NCBI RefSeq assembly: GCF_018118585.1
Contig: NZ_CP069421.1
Location: 3,100,001-3,164,000 of the forward strand
Direction of reading: 5' to 3'
DNA length: 64,000 nt
Source: Aristaeella lactis
Lineage (GTDB): Bacteria > Bacillota > Clostridia > Christensenellales > Aristaeellaceae
Made by a program: the position numbers and the translations under genes. Below are positions 24,445 to 37,066 of this stretch, piece after piece (position 1 is the first letter of the stretch; each line of letters starts with the position of its first letter). A model generated the notes under the pieces. It was not told where the DNA came from. It ran no database searches and saw nothing but the letters and a program-made list of their open reading frames with translations.

Positions 24445-25566
24445 ATGACAGACATACTGGAAAACAGGACCGCAGAAACCGAAGCGTTGAAAGCGGCTGA
24501 AAAAACGGAAGGAAAGAAGAAAAAGAGAAGCCGGAAAAAGAAGACTCTGAAGCGGCTTTTCTGGCTTGTAATCATCCTGCTGGTGCTGGGTGTGGCCCTC
24601 TGGTCCGTGATCAGCAAACTGCAGGCGGAATACAGGGTGACCTACGATCCCTATACCGCCACAACAGGAAGTATCTCCAATTCATTGTCCTTTACGGGCA
24701 GCATGCAGCTGGTCAACAGCGCTTCCTATACTGCTTCCTCGGACGCAAAGATCCGGGAAATCTATGTGGCTGAAGGGGATAGTGTCAAAGACGGCGACAA
24801 GCTGATACGCCTGTCGAACGGACAGCTGGTTGAGGCGGAGTTTGACGGAATAGTCAATACCATTGACGTGGAAAAGGGCGACGAGGTGAAGGCCGGGGAA
24901 AGCCTTATAACCGTAGCGGACTTTGATCATATGAAGGTTTCGGTCCGCATCGGTGAGAGTAATATCAGCGAGGTCACGGCAGGCCAGAACTGCCGCGTGA
25001 CGGTTTCTTCCGCAGGTGCGACCTTTGACACGGTGATCGACAAGATCGATTATGTATCCTATACAGGCAACAACGTGGCCTATTACACAGGGACGGTGCT
25101 GGTGGATACCACCGGCACAGAGAATATATGGCCCGGGATGCAGGCAACCGTCACTGTGCCGCAGGAAGAGGCGCAGAACGTGACCGTGCTGAAGATGGAA
25201 GCCCTGAGCACCGCACGGGACAACACTGCTTATGTTTATAAGGAAAACGAAGACGGTGAAATGGAGCAGGTCGCTGTGACGGTAGGCGTGAGCAACGGCA
25301 ACTATGTGGAGATCAGGGAAGGCGTTGCTGCCGGTGAGACTGTTTACAAGATCGCCGAGAAGGAAGAAGAACTTACGGGTCTGGCCGGACTGTTCTCAGG
25401 CATGTTCTCCAGCACACAGGTAAACCGGAACACCAACCGGAACCGCAACAACCAGGGCGGAAGCTGGAATTCCGAATTCGGCGGCATGCCGGATATGGGC
25501 AATGCTCCGGGCAGAGATTATGCGCCAGGCGGTAATGGCAGCAACGGCGGATCACGGGGGAACTGA
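24445..25566 (+). CDS. MacA/HlyD-type membrane fusion protein
   Basis: A 373-residue adaptor for an ABC exporter. Charged N-terminus (KKKKRSRKKKT), one membrane helix at about 37-55, then a periplasmic-type body with a lipoyl-like barrel-sandwich (IREIYVAEGDSVKDGDKLIR, GDEVKAGESLITVADF) and beta-barrel segments. The last 50 residues are a Gly/Asn/Arg-rich low-complexity tail. It is followed by the ATPase gene after two bases. In Gram-positives such proteins work with MacB-like permeases, without an outer-membrane channel. The substrate is unknown. Confidence 0.88.
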   Translation: MTDILENRTAETEALKAAEKTEGKKKKRSRKKKTLKRLFWLVIILLVLGVALWSVISKLQAEYRVTYDPYTATTGSISNSLSFTGSMQLVNSASYTASSDAKIREIYVAEGDSVKDGDKLIRLSNGQLVEAEFDGIVNTIDVEKGDEVKAGESLITVADFDHMKVSVRIGESNISEVTAGQNCRVTVSSAGATFDTVIDKIDYVSYTGNNVAYYTGTVLVDTTGTENIWPGMQATVTVPQEEAQNVTVLKMEALSTARDNTAYVYKENEDGEMEQVAVTVGVSNGNYVEIREGVAAGETVYKIAEKEEELTGLAGLFSGMFSSTQVNRNTNRNRNNQGGSWNSEFGGMPDMGNAPGRDYAPGGNGSNGGSRGN

Positions 25567-25568
25567 CG

Positions 25569-26267
25569 ATGGCTGGAGAAGTATTCTTCCGCATGCGGGA
25601 GATTGACAAGATCTATCCGCTGGAGGGGGAGAATGTCCATGCTCTGAAAAAGGTATCCCTTACCGTGGAGGAAGGGGACTACCTTTCAGTGCTGGGGCCC
25701 TCCGGCAGCGGAAAGACAACACTGATGAATATTATCGGCTGCCTGGACACCCCAACTTCCGGAGAGTATACCCTGCGGGGCCGGGAAGTGGAGGAGCTGG
25801 ATGAGCGGGAACTGGCTGAGCTGCGGAACCGGGAAATCGGATTTATTTTCCAGAATTCCCAGCTGCTGCCCAGGCTGACAGCCAGAAAGAACGTGGAACT
25901 GCCCCTGATCTATGCGGGTGTCCGGCCGAAGGAACGACGGGAACGGGCGGAAGCTATGCTGGAACGGGTAGGATTGAAGGACCGGATGGATCACCTGCCC
26001 AATCAGCTTTCCGGCGGTCAGCAGCAGCGCGTGGCGATAGCCCGGGCAATGGTGGGCAATCCCTCTATCCTGCTGGCGGACGAACCGACGGGCGCCCTGG
26101 ACCAGAAGACGGGCGCCCAGATCATGCAGCTGTTCCGGGAACTGAATGAGGAAAAGCGTACGGTGATCATGATCACCCATGACCTGAAGATCGCCTCGAA
26201 TGCCCGGAGAGTGGTGCATATCATCGACGGGGAACTGTCGGATGGAGGAGGTGTGGTCAATGCTTAA
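25569..26267 (+). CDS. ABC transporter ATPase, MacB/LolD type
   Basis: A 232-residue ATPase driving the MacB-like permease at 26260. Walker A GPSGSGKTTLMNII, Q-loop FIFQNSQLLPRLTA, signature LSGGQQQRVAIARAM, Walker B ILLADEPTGALD and the H-loop VIMITHD are all intact. The family-typical LDTPTSGEY follows Walker A. Its stop lies inside the first codons of the permease gene (8-base overlap), so the two are translated together. Confidence 0.94.
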   Translation: MAGEVFFRMREIDKIYPLEGENVHALKKVSLTVEEGDYLSVLGPSGSGKTTLMNIIGCLDTPTSGEYTLRGREVEELDERELAELRNREIGFIFQNSQLLPRLTARKNVELPLIYAGVRPKERRERAEAMLERVGLKDRMDHLPNQLSGGQQQRVAIARAMVGNPSILLADEPTGALDQKTGAQIMQLFRELNEEKRTVIMITHDLKIASNARRVVHIIDGELSDGGGVVNA

Positions 26268-27471
26268 AACCCTCCGGAAGAAACTGATCACCATCCGGGA
26301 AAGCGCAGCGATGGCGCTGGATAACATCCGGAGCAACAAGGTTCGTTCTTTCCTGACCCTGCTGGGCATCATGATCGGCGTTATGGCGGTCATTACCCTG
26401 ATATCCACGGTGTCCGGCGTGTCCGGAACGATCTCTTCCTCCTTTTCCGACATGGGTGTCGGCACCCTGACAGTGAGCGTGACCGGCAGTGACCTGAAGA
26501 CCGGTATGACGCCGGAGGATCTGCAGGTGATCACGGAGCTGGAAAACGTGGACGGTGTGGTGCCGAGCATCAGCCTGAACGGACGGGTTTCCTACGGAAA
26601 CAACGTACAGACAGGGATGTCCGTTTCCGGCAAGAACGCCTATTACTTTGACCTGAACGGGGAAATGATTATTCAGGGACGTACCCTGAACTTCATTGAC
26701 GACGATAACCGCAGTTATGTGTGCGTGATCAGCCAGAAGATTGTGGATGAATTCTTTCTGGGGATTAACCCGGTTGGGGAAACCCTGTATGTGTCCGGAC
26801 TGCCCTTTACTATCGTGGGACGGTATGAGGAAGACAGCGGCGGAGGAATCGCCTCGATTTTCATGGGATCCCCGGATGTGATGATCCCCTATACCACAGC
26901 TATGAAGGTGAACAACTCCAACGAGGTGACTTCCTTTACCGTATACCTGAAGGACGGTGCGGATTCCGCAGCGGCGAAGGAAGAAATTGAAGATGCAATG
27001 GATGTGCTGTTTGACTTCGAGGAGGACTGCTACACCGTGGCCTCAATGGAAAGCATTGAGGAAACCATGAACACGATGACCACCATGCTGAGTTCTCTGC
27101 TGGCGGGCATCGCCTCCATTGCTCTGCTGGTCGGCGGCATCGGCATTATGAACATGATGCTGACCACGGTAACGGAGCGGACGACGGAGATCGGCCTGAA
27201 GAAGGCCCTGGGCGCCGTGCCCGGACAGATCCAGATGCAGTTCCTGCTGGAAAGCTTCCTGCTTTCCATGATCGGAGGCCTGCTGGGAGTTGCATTCGGT
27301 CTGGCATTGTCCTACTGGCTGTGCCAGCTGCTGGGAACAAACTTCGTACTGAACATGGGAGCCATTGCCCTGGGCGTAGGCTTCTCCGCGGCAGTCGGTA
27401 TCATCTTCGGATGGGCTCCCGCAAGAAAGGCAAGCCGGCTCAATCCCATTGACGCACTGAGAGCGGTGTAA
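26260..27471 (+). CDS. ABC transporter permease, MacB type
   Basis: A 403-residue permease with the MacB topology: one N-terminal helix (about 22-45), a large extracytoplasmic domain (about 60-270) and three C-terminal helices. The FtsX-like C-terminus has IGIMNMMLTTVTERTTEIGL followed by KKALGAVPGQIQMQFLLES, and ends with ASRLNPIDALRAV, a hallmark of the family. GGAGGAGGTG lies before ATG 26260; an earlier in-frame start at 26200 lies inside the ATPase gene. Likely role: export of a peptide, toxin or antibiotic. Confidence 0.93.
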   Translation: MLKTLRKKLITIRESAAMALDNIRSNKVRSFLTLLGIMIGVMAVITLISTVSGVSGTISSSFSDMGVGTLTVSVTGSDLKTGMTPEDLQVITELENVDGVVPSISLNGRVSYGNNVQTGMSVSGKNAYYFDLNGEMIIQGRTLNFIDDDNRSYVCVISQKIVDEFFLGINPVGETLYVSGLPFTIVGRYEEDSGGGIASIFMGSPDVMIPYTTAMKVNNSNEVTSFTVYLKDGADSAAAKEEIEDAMDVLFDFEEDCYTVASMESIEETMNTMTTMLSSLLAGIASIALLVGGIGIMNMMLTTVTERTTEIGLKKALGAVPGQIQMQFLLESFLLSMIGGLLGVAFGLALSYWLCQLLGTNFVLNMGAIALGVGFSAAVGIIFGWAPARKASRLNPIDALRAV

Positions 27472-27529
27472 AATCAATGCATAATTCATAATGCATAAAG
27501 CATCATTTAATAAACGGAGGTCATATAAA

Positions 27530-28588
27530 ATGAGAACCATGAAGCGGGCAGCGGCTATGCTCTTTGCACTGGCACTGGTACTGGGATCCGCCGGAGCGGA
27601 AACCATGAGCCTGAACGGAACCGTGGAAGCCGGGGTGACGGTACCGGTATACGCACCCATCGGCGGGACCGTGGACAATGTGGCCCTGGAACAGGGTATG
27701 CATGTGAACGCGGGAGATGTCCTGTTTACTTATAAAACCGAAAAAACCTATGCCTCGGAGGACGGCACCGTGACCGGCGTGTTTGTGCAGGCCGGGGATG
27801 ACGCGGAAACCGTCGCCGGCCGTTACGGCGCGGACCTGTATATTGAGGGGACCATCCTGTATACCGTTTCCTCAAGTACTTCCAAAGCGTATCCTTCTGT
27901 GGACACAACCATCGTCCATACCGGTGAGACAGTCTACCTGGTCTGCAGAACCGACTCCACCCGTAAGGGAACCGGTATTATTACAGGAGTGGAAGGTTCC
28001 AATTACTCCGTGCTGGTGTCGGAAGGCAATTTCGTGATTGGGGATTCCGTGACGATTTACCGGGATGAAGCACACACGGAAAAGCTGCGGATCGGCCGGG
28101 GCAATGTGGAACGGGTCAGCCCTGAGGCTGTGACCGCTTCCGGTGCCGTGGTCAGCGTAGCGGTGAATGACGGGGATAAGGTAAAACGCGGCGACCTGCT
28201 GCTGGAAACCCTGAGCGGCACCTTTGAAGGATATGAGATGACCGGAACCGCAGTGACAGCCGCGGAGGACGGTGTGATCATGTCTGTTTCCGCGGAAGCT
28301 GGAGCGGCGGTGAACAAGGGAGATGTGACGGCACGTATCGCGCCGGTGAGCGGTATGCGTGTGGAAGCGGACGTGACCGCGGACGACCGGAAGCTGCTGA
28401 AAGCCGGCGACAAGGTGACGATCGAGCTGGAATCCGATGAAAGCAAGAGCTATGAAGGCACGGTAAGGTATATCACCGAAACACCGGAGGAAGACGTGGA
28501 GGAGGTTACCTATAAGGCAGTGATCGACTTTACGCCGGATGAAAGCGTGTATTTCGGAATGAAAGTCGTTGTAACCTCGGCTGAGTAA
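27530..28588 (+). CDS. Secreted HlyD-like accessory protein of the MacAB operon
   Basis: A 352-residue protein with a signal peptide (MRTMKRAAAMLFALALVLGSAGA) and no C-terminal anchor. The body has two lipoyl-like barrel-sandwich segments (GTVDNVALEQGMHVNAGDVL; VAVNDGDKVKRGDLLLETLSG) and a beta-barrel ending similar to membrane fusion proteins. A second adaptor-like protein in a MacAB operon is unusual, since the fusion protein at 24445 is complete. It may replace or cap the adaptor outside the membrane. CGGAGG lies upstream; the 58-base gap holds an AT-rich repeat of the kind seen elsewhere in the window. Confidence 0.7.
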   Translation: MRTMKRAAAMLFALALVLGSAGAETMSLNGTVEAGVTVPVYAPIGGTVDNVALEQGMHVNAGDVLFTYKTEKTYASEDGTVTGVFVQAGDDAETVAGRYGADLYIEGTILYTVSSSTSKAYPSVDTTIVHTGETVYLVCRTDSTRKGTGIITGVEGSNYSVLVSEGNFVIGDSVTIYRDEAHTEKLRIGRGNVERVSPEAVTASGAVVSVAVNDGDKVKRGDLLLETLSGTFEGYEMTGTAVTAAEDGVIMSVSAEAGAAVNKGDVTARIAPVSGMRVEADVTADDRKLLKAGDKVTIELESDESKSYEGTVRYITETPEEDVEEVTYKAVIDFTPDESVYFGMKVVVTSAE

Positions 28589-28623: not shown

Positions 28624-28652
28624 TTGCCAGACGGAGAAACAGGTGATAGAAT
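28624..28652 (+). promoter_or_regulatory. Promoter of the aromatic amino acid operon
   Basis: TTGCCA (28624-28629), 17-base spacer, TAGAAT (28647-28652); each hexamer has one mismatch to consensus. Transcription would start near 28659, giving a leader of about 190 bases before aroF. Confidence 0.75.
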
Positions 28653-28698
28653 ACCCGTGATTCAATCACTGCGCTTCAGGCGCGGAAAGGGAAGTACC

Positions 28699-28752
28699 AT
28701 GCGGCAGGTTTACGGGTTTTATTACTACTATTACTTTACCAACTGTATTTGA
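28699..28752 (+). CDS. Aromatic operon leader peptide (Phe/Tyr attenuator)
   Basis: A 17-codon ORF encoding MRQVYGFYYYYYFTNCI, preceded by GGAAAGGGAAG at normal spacing. Six of its codons are Tyr and two are Phe, with five Tyr in a row, directly before genes making Tyr and Phe. Leader peptides rich in the regulated amino acid are the sensor of ribosome-mediated attenuation. The Tyr run overlaps the left arm of a hairpin (28731-28740 with 28753-28762), and a terminator hairpin follows at 28799. Too short for ordinary gene finders. Function is inferred from these features; no experiment is implied. Confidence 0.85.
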   Translation: MRQVYGFYYYYYFTNCI

Positions 28753-28762
28753 GGTAAGGTAA
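28731..28762 (+). promoter_or_regulatory. Pause/anti-antiterminator hairpin of the aro leader
   Basis: TTACTTTACC (28731-28740) pairs with GGTAAGGTAA (28753-28762), ten base pairs with one G-T, looping out the end of the leader ORF. A ribosome stalled in the Tyr run would prevent this stem. Confidence 0.65.
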
Positions 28763-28779
28763 TTTTGCCGCGCAGGTTT

Positions 28780-28833
28780 CCCTGGTAAGGGTGAACATCA
28801 GGGCCCGCAGAATTACTGCGGGCCCTGTTTATT
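28780..28833 (+). terminator. Attenuator terminator with candidate antiterminator
   Basis: CAGGGCCCGCAG (28799-28810) and CTGCGGGCCCTG (28816-28827) form a perfect 12-bp stem with a 5-nt loop, then TTTATT. An alternative stem, CCCTGGT (28780-28786) with ATCAGGG (28797-28803), would consume the left arm and relieve termination. The T-run is short, so termination efficiency is uncertain. Confidence 0.78.
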
Positions 28834-28851
28834 CGGGAAGGAGCAGAAAAC

Positions 28852-29856
28852 ATGATTATCGCGCTGAAAAAAGACGTCCGGAAAGAAGAAAAAGAGCACC
28901 TGATTGAGTGGCTGGAAAGCTACGGGGTACGGACGCATATATCAGAAGGTGAATTCCAGACGGTGATCGGACTGGTGGGTGATACCACCCGGATCGATAC
29001 AGACCTGATCAGCGGACTGGACATTGTCCAGAGCGTGACCCGGATTTCGGAGCCTTTCAAGAAGGCGAACCGGAAGTTCCATCCGGATGACACCGTGGTC
29101 CGGGTAACGGACCAGGTGGCCTTCGGCGGCGGTCATTTCCAGATTATTGCAGGACCCTGCTCCGTGGAGACGGAGGATCAGGTGGAGACCATCGCCAAAG
29201 CGGTCCAGGCCAGCGGAGCGGGCATGCTCCGGGGCGGCGCTTTCAAACCCCGTACTTCCCCCTATGATTTCCAGGGGCTGCACGGGGAAGGCATCCGGAT
29301 CCTGCTGGAGGTCAAAAAGCGGACCGGCATGCCGATCATTACCGAGATCATGGACATCGGTCACCTGCCGCTGTTTGAACAGGTGGACGTGATCCAGGTG
29401 GGCGCACGGAACATGCAGAACTTTGAGCTGCTCAAGGAACTGGGCCGGATCAGGAAACCGATCCTGCTCAAGCGCGGCCTGGCGAACAACATCAAGGAGC
29501 TGCTGATGAGCGCCGAGTACATCATGGCCGGCGGCAATGAGCAGATCATCCTGTGCGAGCGGGGCGTCCGTACATTCGAGACCTATACCAGGAACACATT
29601 GGATCTCTCCGCTGTGGCGGTGCTGCATGAACTGAGCCACCTGCCGGTGGTGGTGGACCCGAGCCACGCGACCGGCGCGGCGCGGTATGTGAAACCCATG
29701 GCGATGGCTGCCGCAGCTTGCGGGGCGGACGGCCTGATGATCGAGGTACACAACGATCCGCGGCATGCCCTGTGCGACGGACCCCAGAGCCTGACGCCGG
29801 AACAGTTTGACGATGTGGCGAAGGCTGTCATGAAGATCCGTGCCGCAGTGGTATAA
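28852..29856 (+). CDS. aroF: DAHP synthase (type I beta)
   Basis: 3-deoxy-7-phosphoheptulonate synthase, the first step of the shikimate pathway: phosphoenolpyruvate plus erythrose-4-phosphate. The 334-residue protein has an N-terminal ferredoxin-like regulatory domain (1 to about 65), which in relatives binds Tyr or Phe, and a TIM-barrel catalytic domain with GPCSVE (101-106), RGGAFKPRTSPYDFQG and DPSHATG. GGGAAGGAG lies upstream of ATG 28852. It is the first structural gene behind the attenuator, so it may be controlled both at transcription and by feedback. Confidence 0.95.
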   Translation: MIIALKKDVRKEEKEHLIEWLESYGVRTHISEGEFQTVIGLVGDTTRIDTDLISGLDIVQSVTRISEPFKKANRKFHPDDTVVRVTDQVAFGGGHFQIIAGPCSVETEDQVETIAKAVQASGAGMLRGGAFKPRTSPYDFQGLHGEGIRILLEVKKRTGMPIITEIMDIGHLPLFEQVDVIQVGARNMQNFELLKELGRIRKPILLKRGLANNIKELLMSAEYIMAGGNEQIILCERGVRTFETYTRNTLDLSAVAVLHELSHLPVVVDPSHATGAARYVKPMAMAAAACGADGLMIEVHNDPRHALCDGPQSLTPEQFDDVAKAVMKIRAAVV

Positions 29857-29882
29857 TGCCGGCAGGAGAGGAAAGAGAAGAT

Positions 29883-30737
29883 ATGGAAAGCAAAACGATC
29901 GGCGTGATCGGCCTTGGGCTGATGGGCGCTTCCCTGTGCAAGGCGCTGGGTGCCTGCGGACATACGATCCTGGGCAGGGATACGGATGAACACGTACAGA
30001 AATACGCCCTGTTGACGGAAACCATCAAGGGAGAACTGACGGAAGAGAAGATCCCGGAATGCGATTATCTGTTCCTGGCGGTATATCCCGGCGCGGCGGT
30101 GGAGGCACTGGAGAAGATGGCCTCCCTGATCCGGAAGGACACCATTGTATGTGACCTGTGCGGCGTGAAGCAGGCTGTTTGCGAACCCTGCTTTACCCTG
30201 GCGCAGCAGTACGGCTTCACCTTCATCGGAGGCCACCCCATGGCCGGCAAACAGTTTTCCGGCATCAAATACGCGGACGGGAACCTGTACCAGGGTGCGA
30301 CCATGATCCTGGTGCCCCGGCAGCAGGAAGACCTGTTCCTGGTCAGCCGGCTGAGCGATCTGCTGCGGGGAGCGGGCTTCCGTTCTGTAACCGTGACAAC
30401 GCCGGAGAAGCACGATGAGATGATAGCCTTTACCTCCCAGCTGGCCCATGTGGTCTCCAACGCCTATATCAAATCCCCCACGGCAGCGGAGCACCTGGCG
30501 TTCTCCGCCGGCAGCTACCGGGACCTGACCCGGGTGGCCAAGCTAAATGAGGATATGTGGACCGAGCTTTTCCTGGACAATGCGGAACACCTGGGCTTTG
30601 AACTGGACTGCCTGATCCGTTCCCTGCAGGAATACAGGGACGCCATCGCGGCGGATGACGCGAAGACGCTGAAACGGCTCCTGAAGGAAGGCCGTGAGCG
30701 CAAGGAAGCCATCGACACGGAGTGGAAGGATAAGTAA
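29883..30737 (+). CDS. tyrA: Prephenate dehydrogenase
   Basis: Oxidative decarboxylation of prephenate to 4-hydroxyphenylpyruvate, the tyrosine branch. The 284-residue protein has a Rossmann fold (TIGVIGLGLMGASLCKAL) and the family motif GGHPMAGKQFSGIKYA with a conserved His; HDEMIAFTSQLAHV provides the helical-domain motif. It has no ACT domain, so feedback inhibition by Tyr through such a domain is not expected. ATG 29883 has AGGAGAGG 9 bases upstream; another in-frame ATG at 29856 overlaps the aroF stop but has no ribosome site. Confidence 0.93.
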   Translation: MESKTIGVIGLGLMGASLCKALGACGHTILGRDTDEHVQKYALLTETIKGELTEEKIPECDYLFLAVYPGAAVEALEKMASLIRKDTIVCDLCGVKQAVCEPCFTLAQQYGFTFIGGHPMAGKQFSGIKYADGNLYQGATMILVPRQQEDLFLVSRLSDLLRGAGFRSVTVTTPEKHDEMIAFTSQLAHVVSNAYIKSPTAAEHLAFSAGSYRDLTRVAKLNEDMWTELFLDNAEHLGFELDCLIRSLQEYRDAIAADDAKTLKRLLKEGRERKEAIDTEWKDK

Positions 30738-30766: not shown

Positions 30767-31909
30767 ATGACCATTGAGGAACTGAGGGCGCGGATTGACC
30801 GGATTGACAGTGGCCTGATCCGGCTTTATGCAGAGCGCCTGGAGACAGCGGCCGAGATCGGCAAATACAAACAGGAACATAACCTGCCTGTTTTTGATCC
30901 TGCCCGGGAGCGGGAAGTGCTCAACAAGGTCGGGGCAGAAGCCGGTGAAGCGAATGAGAACGGCGTACGGGCTCTGTTTTCCTTCCTGATGGCCCAGAGC
31001 CGGACCAGCCAGATGCTGGACCGGAAGCAGGAGAGCGAATTGGGCAAACTGATCCGCCGGAGCGTGGAGGAGACACCGAAGCTTTTCCCTGAAAAGGCAA
31101 AGGTGGCCTGCCAGGGCGTGGAAGGCGCCTATTCCCAGCAGGCCTGCGAAAAGATGTTCAGGTCGCCGGCCATCACATACTGCAAAACCTTTGGAGATGT
31201 GTTTTCCGCCATCGAAAGCGGGGAATGTGAATACGGTGTACTGCCGATCGAGAACAGCCTGGCCGGATCCGTGAACAGCGTATATGACAAGCTGCTCAGC
31301 CGGAAATGCTATATTGTCCGTTCCGCCCGGGTGAAGATCGATCATACCCTTCTGGTGAAGCCCGGAACGAAGCCGGAAGATATCCGGGAGATCTGGTCCC
31401 ACGAGCAGGCGATTCAGCAGTGCTCTGATTTCCTTTCGAAAAACAAACAGTGGCAGGTCAACGTCAGCAGCAACACCGCCGCCGCTGCCCGGATGGTGGC
31501 GGAAAGCGGCCGGAAGGACGTGGCTGCCATCTCATCCGGACGCTGCGCGCAGCTGTACGGCCTGGAGATCCTGAAGACGGATATCCAGAACAACAGCAAT
31601 AACCATACCCGGTTTATCTGCATTTCCCGGAAACCGGAGATTTATCCCGGGGCGGACCGCACCAGCCTGATGCTGGCACTGCCCGACAGGCCCGGTGCGT
31701 TGTACCAGCTGCTGGGACGATTCAATGCCCAGGGGATCAACCTGACCAAGCTGGAAAGCCGTCCTGTGCCCGGGAAGGATTTCGAGTTCATGTTCTGCTT
31801 TGATATTGACGCGTCTGTCTATTCCCCCGCCTTTACCCGGCTGATCGAGGAACTGGATGTGACGCTGGAGAAATGCGTGTATTTGGGAAGCTATTCCGAA
31901 TTGGCCTGA
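30767..31909 (+). CDS. pheA: Bifunctional chorismate mutase / prephenate dehydratase (P-protein)
   Basis: Converts chorismate to prephenate, then to phenylpyruvate. Three parts in 380 residues: an AroQ chorismate mutase helix bundle (1-90; RIDRIDSGLIRLYAERLETA), a prephenate dehydratase domain (about 105-285; CQGVEGAYSQQAC, and NHTRFICIS with the catalytic Thr-Arg-Phe), and a C-terminal ACT domain (about 295-375; GALYQLLGRFNAQGINLTKL followed by ESRP) that binds Phe for feedback. AAAGGATGAAG lies upstream. It supplies prephenate for both pheA and tyrA branches, which explains its place in one operon. Confidence 0.95.
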   Translation: MTIEELRARIDRIDSGLIRLYAERLETAAEIGKYKQEHNLPVFDPAREREVLNKVGAEAGEANENGVRALFSFLMAQSRTSQMLDRKQESELGKLIRRSVEETPKLFPEKAKVACQGVEGAYSQQACEKMFRSPAITYCKTFGDVFSAIESGECEYGVLPIENSLAGSVNSVYDKLLSRKCYIVRSARVKIDHTLLVKPGTKPEDIREIWSHEQAIQQCSDFLSKNKQWQVNVSSNTAAAARMVAESGRKDVAAISSGRCAQLYGLEILKTDIQNNSNNHTRFICISRKPEIYPGADRTSLMLALPDRPGALYQLLGRFNAQGINLTKLESRPVPGKDFEFMFCFDIDASVYSPAFTRLIEELDVTLEKCVYLGSYSELA

Positions 31910-32097: not shown

Positions 32098-33054
32098 ATG
32101 AAGATGAAGGATTTCGGATTCTACCGGGGCGTGAACCTGGGCGGCTGGTTCTCCCAGTGTGATTATTCCAAAGAACGCCTGGATCATTTTATTACAGAGC
32201 CGGACATTGACGTGATTGCCGGCTGGGGACTGGATCATGTACGGATCCCCATGGACTATAACGTGCTGGAAACCGCGGAGGGCGGGCTCAGCACAGAAGG
32301 TTTTGACAGGATCGCCAAGGCGGTGGAATGGTGCAAAAAGCGCGGCCTGAAGGTGGTGCTGGACCTGCACAAGACTGCCGGTTATTCCTTTGACGCGGCG
32401 CATCAGGAAAGCGGCTTCTTCGGCAGTGCTTTATACCAGGAACGGTTTTACAGGCTGTGGGAAGGGTTGGCGGAACGCTTCAATGATCCGGAGAATATCG
32501 CCTTTGAACTGCTGAACGAGGTGACGGACGCTTCGGTGATCGGGGAGTGGAACCGGATCGTGGCGGAAGCGATCGCCCGCATCCGGAAGATAGCTCCCCG
32601 GAGCCTGATCCTGGTGGGCAGCTACTGGAACAACAGCCCGGAGGCGGTCAAGGACCTGGATATGCCGGCGGATGACCGGGTGATCTACAATTTCCACTGC
32701 TATGATCCGCTGATCTTTACGCACCAGGGCGCCACCTGGATTCCGGATCCCGCCTTCGATATTGACCGGCGGGTGTCCTTTGAGGAAGCGGATATCACAC
32801 CGGAATACTTTGAGAAGCAGTTCGCTTCCGCCATTGAGACCGCGAAGGCCCGGGGGACGACCCTGTACTGCGGCGAGTACGGCGTGATCGACCGGGCGAC
32901 GCCGGAAGATACCGTGAAATGGTTCAGAACCATCAATGAAGTGTTTGAGAAACACGGAATTGCCCGCAGCGCCTGGTCCTACCGCCAGATGGACTTCGGC
33001 CTGAGTGACACGCGCCTGGACGGTGTCCGGGACGAACTGGTCAAATACCTGTAA
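32098..33054 (+). CDS. Glycoside hydrolase family 5 (endoglucanase-like), intracellular
   Basis: A 318-residue (beta/alpha)8 glycosidase. It shows the GH5 pattern GVNLGGWFSQCDY near the start, the acid/base Glu in FELLNEVTD (near 140) and the nucleophile Glu in YCGEYGVID (near 260), with RIPMDYNVLE between. There is no signal peptide, binding module or membrane segment, so it probably cleaves imported beta-glucan, mannan or xylan oligosaccharides. AAAGGACG lies upstream. It converges with the GH43 pair at a shared terminator. Confidence 0.88.
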   Translation: MKMKDFGFYRGVNLGGWFSQCDYSKERLDHFITEPDIDVIAGWGLDHVRIPMDYNVLETAEGGLSTEGFDRIAKAVEWCKKRGLKVVLDLHKTAGYSFDAAHQESGFFGSALYQERFYRLWEGLAERFNDPENIAFELLNEVTDASVIGEWNRIVAEAIARIRKIAPRSLILVGSYWNNSPEAVKDLDMPADDRVIYNFHCYDPLIFTHQGATWIPDPAFDIDRRVSFEEADITPEYFEKQFASAIETAKARGTTLYCGEYGVIDRATPEDTVKWFRTINEVFEKHGIARSAWSYRQMDFGLSDTRLDGVRDELVKYL

Positions 33055-33111: not shown

Positions 33112-34602
33112 TTATTCCCTGACAGTCCAGGAATAGATCTTCATATCCCCGTCAGAGATCAGGTACAGGTCATGGACGCCTTCCGCCTGGATCGGTGCGC
33201 TGATCACCAGGGCTTTTCCGTCTTCCGGGATCTCCATACGGACTTTGGCAGCGACCGGGCCCTTGGGATCATCCAGCACCGCGTAAAGCGTGCAGCTGGT
33301 GGGCGGCATGGCGGTGACGGCCAGCGTGGAGGCATTCTTTCCGAAATCCACTCCGGTGATCCGGACCCAGCTTCCGGTACCGCCTTCAATCCAGGTCTTG
33401 CCGTCCGCACCGTTGACCGTGATGCCGGCCTGGTGGGACATGGTGGCGGCAGGAACCGTACGGAAGGGATCCAGCGGCTTCAGCTGGCTGAGGCCCTTCA
33501 TGGTTCCCCTGACCTGCTTCAGCAGGCCGTCCTCGCCGATCTCAATGCGGTTCGCCTGCGGGCTCCGGTAGTTGCCGGTGATGCCCATGGCTTTCTCAAC
33601 GGGACGGTTATGATAGAACAGGTACCATTCACCTTTGAAAGAAGCGATGGAATGATGATTGTTGCCGTACAGGCCGAAGAAATGACCTTCATTGGGGAAC
33701 AGCTCTCCCACATAGGTGTAGGGCCCCAGGGGATTATCCGCGATCATGTACTGGATCGCGCCGTCAGTCAGCTTCAGGCTGTTGCCTTTGGTCATGAAGT
33801 TGGAACAGTAGGAGTAGATGTATTTGTCACCGATCCGGTTGATACCGGAATCCTCAAACAGCCACGGTACATCGAGCCGGACAGGATCCCCGTCCAGGGA
33901 GATCATGTTGTCCGCCAGCTTAACGATGCGCCCGGTGCCGGGGGCGGCCTGCATACCTTCCGGGATACCACCGCCGAAGGCGAGGTAACCGGTGCCGTCC
34001 TCATCCACCATTACGGCGGGGTCGAACAGCCAGGTTACGTCATCGCAGTTTTTCACGGAACGGGAGACGAGCAGATGACCCAGTTCATCCCGCCAGGGGC
34101 CGGTGGGACTGTCAGCGGTCAGCACGCCGACACCGCCGCCGCCGTTGCAGAAATACAGGAAGAACTTTTCTTTTCCGTCAATGGTTTTATGGGCGGCACA
34201 GGGGGCCCAGGAGTTGGTTGCCCATTTGGCAACGCCGCCGGGACCGGCTACCCGGATCTTTCCATGGTCCGTCCAGTTGACCATATCATCTGAGGAGATG
34301 CAGTTGATCGTCCGGATCTGGCTGTAGGTATTCTCCTTCACCTTTCCCTTGCTGTCATATTCCACGAGGTCGTCGGTCATATATACATACAGCCGGCCAT
34401 CGTATTCCATGACACCGGGATCGGCACCGAAACGCTGGGTGTAAAGCGGGTTGTTTTCTCCTGCTTTTTTATAGGATTTCTGCAGCGTTACGGGAATGTT
34501 CTTCATGTCCGTCTCCTCTCCACAGGCACACAGGGGCAGCAGTACAGCGATGAGCAGCGCCGCTGTGCGAATCAGGGACTTGCCGTTCCTGCCGGATTTC
34601 AT
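33112..34602 (-). CDS. Surface lipoprotein glycoside hydrolase family 43
   Basis: A 496-residue GH43 five-bladed propeller enzyme, probably arabinofuranosidase or xylosidase acting on arabinoxylan at the cell surface. The signal peptide ends in a lipobox (LLPLCACGEE, Cys near 27). Catalytic candidates: Asp in FGADPGVMEYDG, Asp in WLFDPAVMVDEDG and Glu in WLFEDSGINRIG. Residues from about 370 form a CBM6-like carbohydrate-binding module (GITVNGADGKTWIEGGTGSW). Its start overlaps the stop of the upstream GH43 gene by four bases (ATGA). Confidence 0.88.
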   Translation of the reverse strand: MKSGRNGKSLIRTAALLIAVLLPLCACGEETDMKNIPVTLQKSYKKAGENNPLYTQRFGADPGVMEYDGRLYVYMTDDLVEYDSKGKVKENTYSQIRTINCISSDDMVNWTDHGKIRVAGPGGVAKWATNSWAPCAAHKTIDGKEKFFLYFCNGGGGVGVLTADSPTGPWRDELGHLLVSRSVKNCDDVTWLFDPAVMVDEDGTGYLAFGGGIPEGMQAAPGTGRIVKLADNMISLDGDPVRLDVPWLFEDSGINRIGDKYIYSYCSNFMTKGNSLKLTDGAIQYMIADNPLGPYTYVGELFPNEGHFFGLYGNNHHSIASFKGEWYLFYHNRPVEKAMGITGNYRSPQANRIEIGEDGLLKQVRGTMKGLSQLKPLDPFRTVPAATMSHQAGITVNGADGKTWIEGGTGSWVRITGVDFGKNASTLAVTAMPPTSCTLYAVLDDPKGPVAAKVRMEIPEDGKALVISAPIQAEGVHDLYLISDGDMKIYSWTVRE

Positions 34603-35576
34603 TTTTCTTCGTAGGGAATGATGGTATCGATCGTACCGTCTTCATGAATGGTCAGCTCTGTGAACTTGACGCAGCGGCGATGGTTAATGCCGTTGGACAG
34701 CTCGCAGTCATGATAGAACAGGTACCATTTGCCCTGGTATTCCACGATGGAGTGGTGGGTGGTCCAGCCAAGAACGGGTTCCATGATCCTTCCTTTGTAG
34801 GTGAAGGGGCCGTCCGGCTTGTCTCCTTCTGCATACACCAGGTAGTGGGTGGTGCCGGTGGAGTAGGAAAGATAATACTTTCCATTAAACTTATGCATCC
34901 AGGGACCTTCGAAATAGCGGCGGTCCTCATCAGCGGCGGTGAGGGGCTTGCCGTTTTCGTCCAGGATCTGCAGGTGCTTCGGTTCAGTCTTGAAGTGCTT
35001 CATATCCGCATCCAGTTCAGCGAACATAGGCCCAAGGGCGGGCTCATCGCCTTCCGGACGGTGGGCATTGGGGTCAAAGCTTCCGCTCTGCCACATTTCC
35101 AGCTGGCCGCCCCACAGGCCGCCGTAGTAGATATAGGCACGGCCGTCATCATCCATGAGTACGGCAGGGTCAATGCTGTAGCTTCCGGGAATGTAATTGT
35201 CTTCCGGTTTGAAGGGACCGGCAGGATCATCCGACACGGCGACGCCGAGACGGAAGATGCCGTCCTTGTCACGGGCGGGGAAATACAGGTAATATTTTCC
35301 GTCCTTGCAGGCGGCATCCGGAGCCCACATCTGCTTGCTGACCCAGGGGATATCCTTCATGTGCAGGGCGCAGCCGTTATCCACGCAGGGCGCGTCCAGG
35401 CTGTCCATGGACAGAATGTGGTAGTCTTCCATCCGGTATTCATCACCGTCGTCGTTGTCCTCACCGTCATGGGGAATATCGTGGGAAGGGTAGACATAGA
35501 TCTTTCCATTAAAAACATGGGCGGAAGGATCCGCGGTAAAGATGTGGGAGACCAGGGGCCGGCGCTGCTCACTCAT
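34599..35576 (-). CDS. Intracellular glycoside hydrolase family 43
   Basis: A 325-residue GH43 enzyme without signal peptide or binding module, probably a beta-xylosidase/alpha-L-arabinofuranosidase for imported oligosaccharides. Catalytic residues are visible: Asp in HIFTADPSAHVFNG, Asp in YSIDPAVLMDDDG and Glu in RRYFEGPWMHKFNGKYY. The start at 35576 has AAAGGAGTG upstream; the open frame continues to 36590 but overlaps tcdA on the other strand. It is the first gene of a two-gene operon with the lipoprotein GH43, pairing a cytoplasmic with a surface enzyme. Confidence 0.92.
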   Translation of the reverse strand: MSEQRRPLVSHIFTADPSAHVFNGKIYVYPSHDIPHDGEDNDDGDEYRMEDYHILSMDSLDAPCVDNGCALHMKDIPWVSKQMWAPDAACKDGKYYLYFPARDKDGIFRLGVAVSDDPAGPFKPEDNYIPGSYSIDPAVLMDDDGRAYIYYGGLWGGQLEMWQSGSFDPNAHRPEGDEPALGPMFAELDADMKHFKTEPKHLQILDENGKPLTAADEDRRYFEGPWMHKFNGKYYLSYSTGTTHYLVYAEGDKPDGPFTYKGRIMEPVLGWTTHHSIVEYQGKWYLFYHDCELSNGINHRRCVKFTELTIHEDGTIDTIIPYEEK

Positions 35577-35609
35577 GGGAATAGCACTCCTTTGTATCAG
35601 AATGGAGAT

Positions 35610-35663
35610 ATTATACAACGAAGATTGCCGAAAAGAAAGTAGTACGGACAAACATGTCTGTAC
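35610..35663 (-). promoter_or_regulatory. GH43 operon promoter and upstream palindrome
   Basis: On the reverse strand TATAAT (35615-35610) lies 34 bases before the start. Upstream, GTACGGACA (35642-35650) and TGTCTGTAC (35655-35663) form 9-bp arms with one mismatch around 4 bases. Its place upstream of a weak -35 suggests an activator site; the regulator is unknown. Confidence 0.5.
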
Positions 35664-35677
35664 AACATAGACAATCC

Positions 35678-35706
35678 TTGAAATCGCCGGAAGAACATGA
35701 GATAAT
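35678..35706 (+). promoter_or_regulatory. tcdA promoter
   Basis: TTGAAA (35678-35683), 17-base spacer, GATAAT (35701-35706), 32 bases before the start codon. Both hexamers match at 5 of 6. Confidence 0.72.
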
Positions 35707-35738
35707 ATATCGATTTTCGGATGGAACGGAGTGTCTTT

Positions 35739-36518
35739 ATGCTGAATCAGTTTTCCAGAACACAACTGCTGCTGGGTCCGGAAGCCATGGAGCATCTGGC
35801 TGAATGCCGTGTAGCAGTGTTCGGTGTCGGCGGTGTGGGCGGCTACGCAGTGGAGGCTCTGACCCGTTCCGGTATCGGATCCCTGGACCTGATCGACGAT
35901 GACAAGGTGTGCCTGACGAACCTGAACCGCCAGATCCATGCCACTCGCAGCACGGTGGGTAAGTATAAGGTGGATGTGGCTGAACAGCGGATCCACGATA
36001 TCAATCCTGACTGTAAGGTTACGACCTATAAAACCTTCTACCTGCCGGAGACACAGGATCAGTTCGATTTTACACAATATGACTATATAATAGATGCAAT
36101 TGATACGGTAAAAGGAAAACTGGCTCTGGTTGAACAGGCAAAGGCTGCCGGAACTCCTATTATCTGTGCCATGGGAGCCGGCAATAAACTGGATCCCACC
36201 GCATTCCGGGTGGCAGACATCTATAAGACCTCTGTCTGCCCTCTTGCGCGGGTGATGCGTACTGAGTGCCGCAAACGGAGGATCAAACACCTGAAGGTGG
36301 TTTATTCCACAGAAAAGCCGGTACGTCCCCTGGAGGATCCGTCCATCAGCTGCAGGAAGCACTGTATCTGTCCTCCGGGCACCCGGAAGTGTACCGTGCG
36401 CAGGGATATTCCAGGTTCCACTGCTTTTGTTCCTGCTGCCGCAGGATTGATCATCGCCGGTGAAGTGATTAAGGATCTGTGCGCGGACTATATCCGACAG
36501 AATGAAGAAAACCGGTAA
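35739..36518 (+). CDS. tcdA: tRNA threonylcarbamoyladenosine dehydratase
   Basis: An E1/ThiF-like ATP-dependent enzyme that cyclises t6A37 in tRNAs. The 259-residue protein has the nucleotide-binding motif FGVGGVGGYAVEALTRSG, the MoeB/ThiF-like DDDKVCLTNLNRQIHA and IDAIDTVKGKLAL. A Cys-rich segment SCRKHCICPPG lies near 205-215. ATG 35739 has ACGGAG 7 bases upstream and is preferred over ATG 35721, which precedes that site. It stands alone; its neighbours are unrelated. Confidence 0.9.
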   Translation: MLNQFSRTQLLLGPEAMEHLAECRVAVFGVGGVGGYAVEALTRSGIGSLDLIDDDKVCLTNLNRQIHATRSTVGKYKVDVAEQRIHDINPDCKVTTYKTFYLPETQDQFDFTQYDYIIDAIDTVKGKLALVEQAKAAGTPIICAMGAGNKLDPTAFRVADIYKTSVCPLARVMRTECRKRRIKHLKVVYSTEKPVRPLEDPSISCRKHCICPPGTRKCTVRRDIPGSTAFVPAAAGLIIAGEVIKDLCADYIRQNEENR

Positions 36519-37066
36519 AATGATCCGGGAGTCATCCATAAGGCATAAAAACTGAAAATCGCGATTGTATAAATTTTGTTTGATGAGCAAAAATGAAAAT
36601 CCATGAAAACTTTATTTTCTTATAATTTCTGGTTTCGAAATGTACGTTCATTATGCAAGAATTGCATTTATTTATGGTAAAAATATCTCTCTGGAAAACG
36701 AAACACAAAAGTGCGAAAACGGTTTAGTGAAATAAAACGTTTGCACAAAAACGGCCTCAAACGCAAGCAAAATATGGCTTTTTGAAGCGTACAACTTATT
36801 GTGTGCTGTTTATTTTTTCGAAAACGGTCACAGCAGTTTCGGAAAAGAATAGTTACATGATATAAAAACATACTATGTAACCAAATATCTGTACAAATTA
36901 CATACAATTGCACGTTTTTGCATCGTTTTTGCGGCACAAAAAGTGCAAAAAGAACGAAATCGATTACGTAAAAAGTGAAAAAAAGAGTTTCACAACGTTG
37001 AAATGCAACCAAAATGTAACTAAAAGCATGATAAAATACAATAGAAATACAAACCGGGTATATTTC
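36519..37066. other. AT-rich intergenic region before the surface-protein genes
   Basis: About 550 bases with many A- and T-tracts, visibly much poorer in GC than the flanking genes. I find no supported gene. It contains an inverted repeat GTTACAT/ATGTAAC (36852-36858, 36875-36881) and TTGCAC...GTGCAA around T-tracts (36907-36947). A weak promoter candidate is TTGAAA at 36998-37003. The composition resembles curved promoter DNA for a highly expressed or silenced surface gene; this is inference. Confidence 0.6.

Follow-up and report, generated by a model that had tools for sequence, protein, structure and literature searches.

A putative Tyr/Phe leader-peptide attenuator before aroF-tyrA-pheA in Aristaeella lactis and its recurrence among Clostridia

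The Phe, Trp and His leaders of enteric bacteria carry codons for the product of the pathway, segments that pair in alternation (1:2, 2:3 and 3:4), and a terminator placed before the operon. T-box leaders sense tRNA charging, bind the tRNA directly, and contain no ORF. We know of no leader in which tyrosine codons are a main sensor. Among the published cases outside the enteric group, PMC9413887 describes His leaders from three groups of Bacillota, each comprising five or six species, and PMC2965389 reports His leaders before hisS/hisZ in Bacilli, its authors stating that they knew of no earlier amino-acid leader peptides outside Proteobacteria and Actinobacteria. For Staphylococcus aureus, PMC5794164 describes a Leu-rich attenuator peptide ahead of ilv-leu, with support from mutants; PMC1262725, in its excerpted part, records no Tyr or Phe leader in Actinobacteria and cites T-boxes for tyrosine. 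PMC8632094 presents uORFC-13-1, a candidate uORF before aroF with a promoter, a ribosome site, one or more Phe codons, and an adjacent terminator, for which attenuation is proposed; its 24 representatives, with at least one Phe residue, come from Acholeplasma and environmental sequences only, and the paper also mentions that attenuation had been hypothesized before for aroF of E. coli. Searches of a CC-licensed library gave no Tyr/Phe leader before aroF in Clostridia; while the mechanism is known, the Tyr/Phe specificity and the wide range reported below are apparently undescribed.

The locus considered here lies in a 64-kb window (that is, the whole stretch of DNA that was analysed). We read it as a classical ribosome-mediated transcription attenuator of the trp/his/phe type that would sense charged tRNA-Tyr and tRNA-Phe, and give this reading a probability of roughly 0.87.

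Parts of the leader locus

The promoter, ribosome site, Tyr/Phe-run ORF and 12-bp terminator that the first-pass annotation had described before aroF-tyrA-pheA were all recovered by reading or scanning the sequence (Table 1). In the leader ORF, the ATG (28699) is followed by a Tyr codon at 28711, a Phe codon at 28717, five consecutive Tyr codons (28720-28734), and a further Phe codon at 28735, with the stop at 28750-28752. In the ribosome-free fold the ribosome site of the leader is partly paired with a TTTCCC segment near 28777-28782. Scans of the leader region gave one promoter-like and one terminator-like site; since shuffled sequences average 0.6 and 0.5 such sites, these motif scans are weak evidence when taken alone. 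The promoter-like site 5' of the leader is kept in close relatives (alignment, by eye), and the leader fold, at -71.8 kcal/mol (z -5.2), was as low in none of 200 shuffles.

Table 1. Features of the leader locus and its surroundings in the window.
Feature	Positions	Strand	Basis
HlyD/MacB-type transporter set, 5' of leader	24445-28588	+	gene identification in the window
Sigma-70-like promoter-like site, TTGCCA-17-TAGAAT, TG before -10	28624-28652	+	motif scan
Leader-peptide ribosome site GGAAAGGGAAG	28684-28694	+	read from sequence; AGGGA at 28688-28692
Leader peptide ORF MRQVYGFYYYYYFTNCI, 17 codons	28699-28752	+	read directly; counterparts in relatives
Region 1: first stem 5' arm, inside codons Y-Y-F-T	28730-28740	+	fold models, covariation, helix comparison
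First stem 3' arm, partner of region 1	28753-28763	+	covariation, fold models, RNAalifold
Region 2 GGTAATTTTGC, pairing with region 1 (portion to 28763) or with region 3	28758-28768	+	modelled states, register-free comparison
Region 3 GCAGAATTACT: from the top of the terminator 5' arm through the loop to the second 3'-arm base; antiterminator partner of region 2	28807-28817	+	modelled states, register-free comparison
Predicted intrinsic terminator hairpin, 12 bp, loop AATTA	28799-28827	+	scan, folding, covariation
Terminator T tract, short, TTTATT	28828-28833	+	read from sequence, scan
aroF ribosome site	28838-28843	+	read from sequence; outside terminator hairpin
aroF, DAHP synthase, PRK08673 type, N-terminal ferredoxin-like domain; putatively the first regulated gene	28852-29856	+	domain/homology identification
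tyrA, prephenate dehydrogenase	29856-30737	+	domain/homology identification
pheA, chorismate mutase-prephenate dehydratase, ACT domain	30767-31909	+	domain/homology identification

No Rfam family matched anywhere in the 64 kb at the curated gathering cut-offs, and at the locus none of the amino-acid leader families (Phe_leader, Thr_leader and others) reached its cut-off; at a lax threshold the leader region gave three matches, the best being Thr_leader, whose 21.2 bits fall short of its cut-off of 55. Farther along, the window encodes a GH5 cellulase, two GH43 glycosidases (minus strand), and a ThiF-family gene (plus) at 32098-33054, 33112-34602, 34599-36590 and 35721-36518; the ThiF-family gene lies across the 5' portion of the minus-strand ORF 34599-36590, a long frame in which the GH43 match begins only at residue 414.

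Alternative pairings between ORF and terminator

The stem noted earlier over the Tyr codons exists, as 11 bp rather than the 10 bp first given. In an alignment of 14 sequences that had itself been fitted to the first-stem/terminator structure tested on it, the covariation score of these two helices was matched by none of 500 shuffles; five pairs changed on both sides, a number that 11 of the 500 shuffles also reached. Helix 1 contributed two pairs with both-sided change and had 97.4% of its cells paired, and RNAalifold, run on the same alignment, recovered both the first stem and the terminator.

Region 2 overlaps the 3' arm of the first stem and can instead form an 11-bp pairing with region 3. 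On the fixed columns of alignment A4 no pair of this 2:3 helix changed on both sides, and the helix did not stand out from shuffles. Single-nucleotide insertions and deletions in the loop explain this at least in part: two sequences with a loop longer by 1 nt (L033, L037) and one with a 1-nt deletion (L039) are out of register. For that reason the longest helices were compared instead, with swapped partners as control. In this register-free comparison all 17 homologous leaders have a 2:3 pairing, 9-14 bp long, in which changes on one side are matched by changes on the other: the window pairs GGTAATTTTGC/GCAGAATTACT, L033 and L037 pair GGGTATTTT/GAAATACCT, L039 pairs GGTAATTTGCG/CGCGGATTACC, L055 pairs AGGTTAGTTTGTG/CACAGATTAACCT, and L056 pairs AGTTGTTTTGCTGC/GCAGTAAAACAGCT. 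When region 3 was swapped among six sequence types, 5-9 bp were left, and 11 bp only between the window type and the near-identical L038; the best-helix rule favours finding helices, and the swaps are its only control. A spacer-shuffle test covered a wider set, in which 244 loci were examined, 79 lacked a leader and 22 a usable terminator or spacer, leaving 143. Over these the 2:3 complementarity had a mean z of -1.8 against spacer shuffles, with p<=0.05 in 67 (about 7 expected), and the native region 3 was a better partner than the mean of swapped ones in 121. Taken singly, neither the window (z -1.3, p 0.14) nor any of the 11 loci of its genus (p 0.095-0.69) was significant in this test. Many family leaders (L069-L168, e.g. 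L079, L085 and L114) share an end such as FTGFxGKACCRM; the DNA of this tail resembles by eye the complement of a terminator arm, and there the antiterminator may lie inside the ORF.

The modelled states agree with a three-way switch. In RNA ending at 28818 and free of ribosomes, the first stem has a probability of 0.95 and the antiterminator of 0; masking the 5' side as far as 28744, for a ribosome on the Tyr run, raises the 2:3 antiterminator to 0.98, and masking as far as 28765, for a ribosome at the stop codon, gives the terminator 0.98. The masks follow an assumed ribosome footprint, and the geometry, with the stop codon beside region 2 and the Tyr codons on region 1, is that of the trp leader. 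In full-length RNA at equilibrium the terminator has a probability of 0.99 even with a stalled ribosome (full equilibrium energies are -26.7 kcal/mol for the terminator versus -11.3 for the antiterminator), so that the switch must be kinetic, the antiterminator acting before the 3' arm of the terminator is complete. A 7-bp stem at 28780-28786/28797-28803, put forward at first as the antiterminator, is present in the sequence but was rejected in that role: its mean probability is 0.11 or less in six modelled states, and by eye the aligned relatives have a local CCC..GGG hairpin or other sequence at this place.

Recurrence of the leader and its codon mix

Of 45 genomes in the window's genus 26 yielded an AroF, and in 11 of these 26 loci a Tyr/Phe-rich ORF and then a terminator precede aroF. 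The aromatic run and hairpins expected in relatives were found, by inspection of aroF upstreams and by covariation, though 15 of the 26 loci have no such leader. The genus peptides vary and keep their aromatic run (MREAYVFYYFTFPRSV, MLRSFYFGFYYFTLVL, MAQFNGFAYYYYFTFMKK), one of them in an all-Phe form (L028, MRSGRTFGFAFTFTFFTLMAG). When 10 leaders were aligned with MAFFT, the first arm came out split in three of them, and covariance model R1 was therefore built from six of the 11 genus loci (L005, L007, L012, L018, L023, L028); it recovers the same 11 of 45 genomes at E 4.9e-9 or better. Another 8 of the 19 places it matched in the genus were weaker and were set aside as the same terminators on the opposite strand or unrelated hairpins. 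With an E-value limit of 1e-3, a second model, R2, built from 14 sequences, matches 20 of 308 genomes in the family, of which 18 are real by leader and downstream aroF (11 from the window's genus and 7 from four further genera) and two are not. Among 396 genomes of the order R2 matched 10, three belonging to the genus and seven false (no aroF, no leader). The sequence model thus stops at the family, and any wider spread rests on the ORF content before aroF. In four leaderless genus relatives (L009, L010, L011, L013) a similar promoter stands directly 5' of aroF (alignment, by eye), which looks like a clean loss of the attenuator between promoter and gene.

For the wider comparison, aroF upstreams were taken irrespective of leader sequence, mostly best matches first and not at random: 100 from the family (AroF in 219 of 308 genomes), 48 from other families of the order (141 of 248 genomes), the best 80 of at least 583 relatives in named genomes, and 29 best plus 40 lower matches from the class (141 of 196 genomes). 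A leader was scored where a ribosome-site-like sequence preceded an ORF of 10-45 codons that ended at least 20 bases before aroF and had at least five Tyr/Phe in eight codons. This rule was passed by 204 of 312 distinct upstreams, from genus to class level, and failed by 108. The reverse strands of the 312 gave five passes, and their dinucleotide shuffles 2.0 on average; a recount with strands taken from the match lists gave the same totals. By set, the leaders number 11/26 in the genus, 72/100 in the family, 26/47 in the order, 56/71 in the named set (drawn from the best 80 of at least 583 relatives), and 19/28 of the best and 20/40 of the lower class matches. Nine of the 80 named loci were removed as contigs already sampled, to judge by length and position, and L190 (33 bases) and L318 (contig end) were excluded; three loci with less than 150 bases upstream (L136, L243, L315) count as misses, and further duplicates under other names may remain, L252 and L258 having one leader in common. 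A stricter ATG-only rule, applied to 227 loci, was passed by 51/100 in the family, 22/47 in the order and 58/80 in the named set (best 80 of at least 583), by none on the reverse strand, and by no more than three for any of nine other residue pairs. Over the 204 leaders the Tyr/Phe density is 0.32 in the ORF frame versus 0.10 and 0.11 in the other two, which argues for selection on codons rather than a T-rich stretch. Named organisms with a leader include Sporobacter termitidis, Angelakisella massiliensis, Aminicella lysinilytica, Emergencia sp. 1XD21-10 and Yanshouia hominis; one sampled AroF (L221) is 98% identical to that of the window. A five-Tyr leader had been thought unusual for a Clostridia-type genome, and with a Tyr/Phe-dense leader in 204 of 312 sampled upstreams it is not.

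The gene upstream of the leader in the window is present in 7 of 33 loci and absent from 12 of the 18 leader-bearing loci among them; to judge from gene order, the leader stays with aroF though the upstream gene differs. An upstream Tyr/Phe-rich ORF before aroF was also seen in metagenome-assembled genomes labelled Treponema, Lentisphaerae and Oligosphaeraceae (L223, L224, L269, L296, of which L224 and L296 fail the leader rule); here either gene and leader were transferred together or the contigs are misbinned.

In the 143 leaders, which are 15-44 codons long, Phe (586) is as common as Tyr (565), and only two have no Tyr (L028 and L143). The Tyr share was compared over 57 loci with a leader, a terminator and readable downstream DNA, two of which have neither tyrA nor aroB next, the next gene being identified by tblastn and one aroB checked by Pfam. 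It is 0.50 before aroF-tyrA (48 loci) versus 0.25 before aroF-aroB (7 loci), with a permutation p <2e-5 (2e-5 after near copies were collapsed to 43 and 5), in small numbers uncorrected for kinship. L028, from the window's own genus, is aroF-aroB by Pfam and has no Tyr codon in its leader.

T-boxes (RF00230) matched 11 places in the window's own genome (L297-L307), three above the Rfam cut-off and eight below, all elsewhere than at aroF, where the window scan also gave none. By eye, the genes that follow them include trpE, a tryptophan synthase beta-like gene, transporters, cysS and thrS. When 20 of 40 class loci were scanned, picked before the leader count, two leaderless class relatives (L352, L374) had a T-box before aroF; a T-box scan of 20 of the 108 leaderless loci gave none.

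Proposed mechanism, its rivals and known systems

The locus combines, as read from its sequence, a short ORF, preceded by a ribosome site, in which codons for the pathway products form a run; a first stem that overlaps these codons and shows compensatory change; an antiterminator incompatible with the first stem as well as with the terminator, as seen in 17 homologues, in the swaps and in the modelled states, as against the null results on fixed columns and at genus loci; and a predicted intrinsic terminator, with a short T tract, before the first structural gene. In the mechanism we infer, for which promoter use, ribosome stalling, tRNA dependence and termination are all presumed, transcription would start upstream of the leader ORF. 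With Tyr and Phe ample, the ribosome would reach the stop at 28750 and cover region 2, the terminator would form, and the polymerase would stop before aroF. With either amino acid short, it would stall on codons 28711-28737 and cover region 1, so that region 2 would pair with region 3, the terminator would be kept open, and aroF-tyrA-pheA would be transcribed. If translation were absent, the first stem would form, and the terminator too. Ribosome-mediated attenuation with a Tyr/Phe leader was what the first-pass annotation had proposed; the comparative data support it in this mechanism and go against it in the antiterminator stem and in rarity.

It is unlikely that the peptide, rather than its codons, is the sensor. 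In a nascent-peptide arrest switch, of which TnaC is an example, the aromatic peptide, perhaps with free Tyr or Phe in the exit tunnel, would arrest the ribosome; the peptide is indeed hydrophobic and aromatic, and some leaders have a common tail after the run, such as the FTGFxGKACCRM end noted by eye. Residue order, however, is not conserved, in that Tyr and Phe interchange, 2 of 143 leaders lack Tyr and lengths span 15-44 codons, and the Tyr share tracks operon content as codon sensing explains. Our guess is that the shared tail is an RNA-pairing sequence and not a peptide signal. That the leader works through translation, RNA decay or Rho and not through intrinsic termination is very unlikely: the short T tract, and the 22 of 165 leader loci set aside because the rule applied saw no terminator or the spacer was unsuitable, would fit it, but the hairpin is 12 bp, GC-rich and covarying, and leaves the ribosome site of aroF free.

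A same-strand gene ends at 28588, and with 0.5 such terminator sites in the average shuffle the hairpin might be nothing but the terminator of the upstream transporter genes, with a chance ORF beside it and aroF on its own promoter. This is already contradicted, and we regard it as highly improbable: the single promoter-like site found precedes the leader, the 24 bases between hairpin and aroF start are too few for a promoter, 12 of the 18 loci that carry a leader do without the upstream gene, and the ORF turns up much more often than chance would allow. Least probable of all, with next to no weight, is control of the operon by a T-box or another described riboswitch; the genome does use T-boxes, one of them before a gene that reads as trpE, yet none of its 11 matches lies at aroF and the window scan had no match at gathering.

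Beyond the single locus, the attenuator reading extends, with a probability that we put somewhat above even, to a class-wide dual Tyr/Phe attenuator at the entry to aromatic synthesis in Clostridia, the first with Tyr codons as a main sensor, its Tyr:Phe mix tuned to the next gene (tyrA or aroB), absent from some lineages through loss or replacement by a T-box, and with the Trp branch of the window's own genome left to T-boxes. If this is true, textbook leader-peptide attenuation, so far known in Bacillota from a handful of isolated cases, would prove to be a common means of controlling aromatic amino acid synthesis in Clostridia, and the codon mix of a leader would read out the content of its operon. 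The ORFs of the family are very short, unmatched here by any Rfam model and easily overlooked by gene callers, and they offer a natural set in which to study the replacement of leader peptide and T-box before the same gene.

Set against known systems, the locus resembles the enteric Phe, Trp and His leaders in its codons, its alternation and the placement of its terminator; it differs in having Tyr and Phe codons together, in belonging to another phylum, in its operon (aroF-tyrA-pheA), and in matching no Rfam leader at cut-off. With T-box leaders it would share the theme of tRNA charging, here with an ORF and no T-box match. The nearest published element, compared by description only, is uORFC-13-1 (PMC8632094), which likewise has a Phe-codon uORF and a terminator before aroF and a proposed attenuation; no Tyr run and no alternating antiterminator figure in the accessible part of its description. 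The Bacillota His leaders (PMC9413887, PMC2965389) are also Gram-positive leader-peptide attenuators found by comparison, and differ in their His codons and in standing before his, hisS or hisZ genes. The S. aureus Leu leader (PMC5794164) is again a case of leader-peptide attenuation in Bacillota, distinguished from ours by its Leu codons and its branched-chain pathway.
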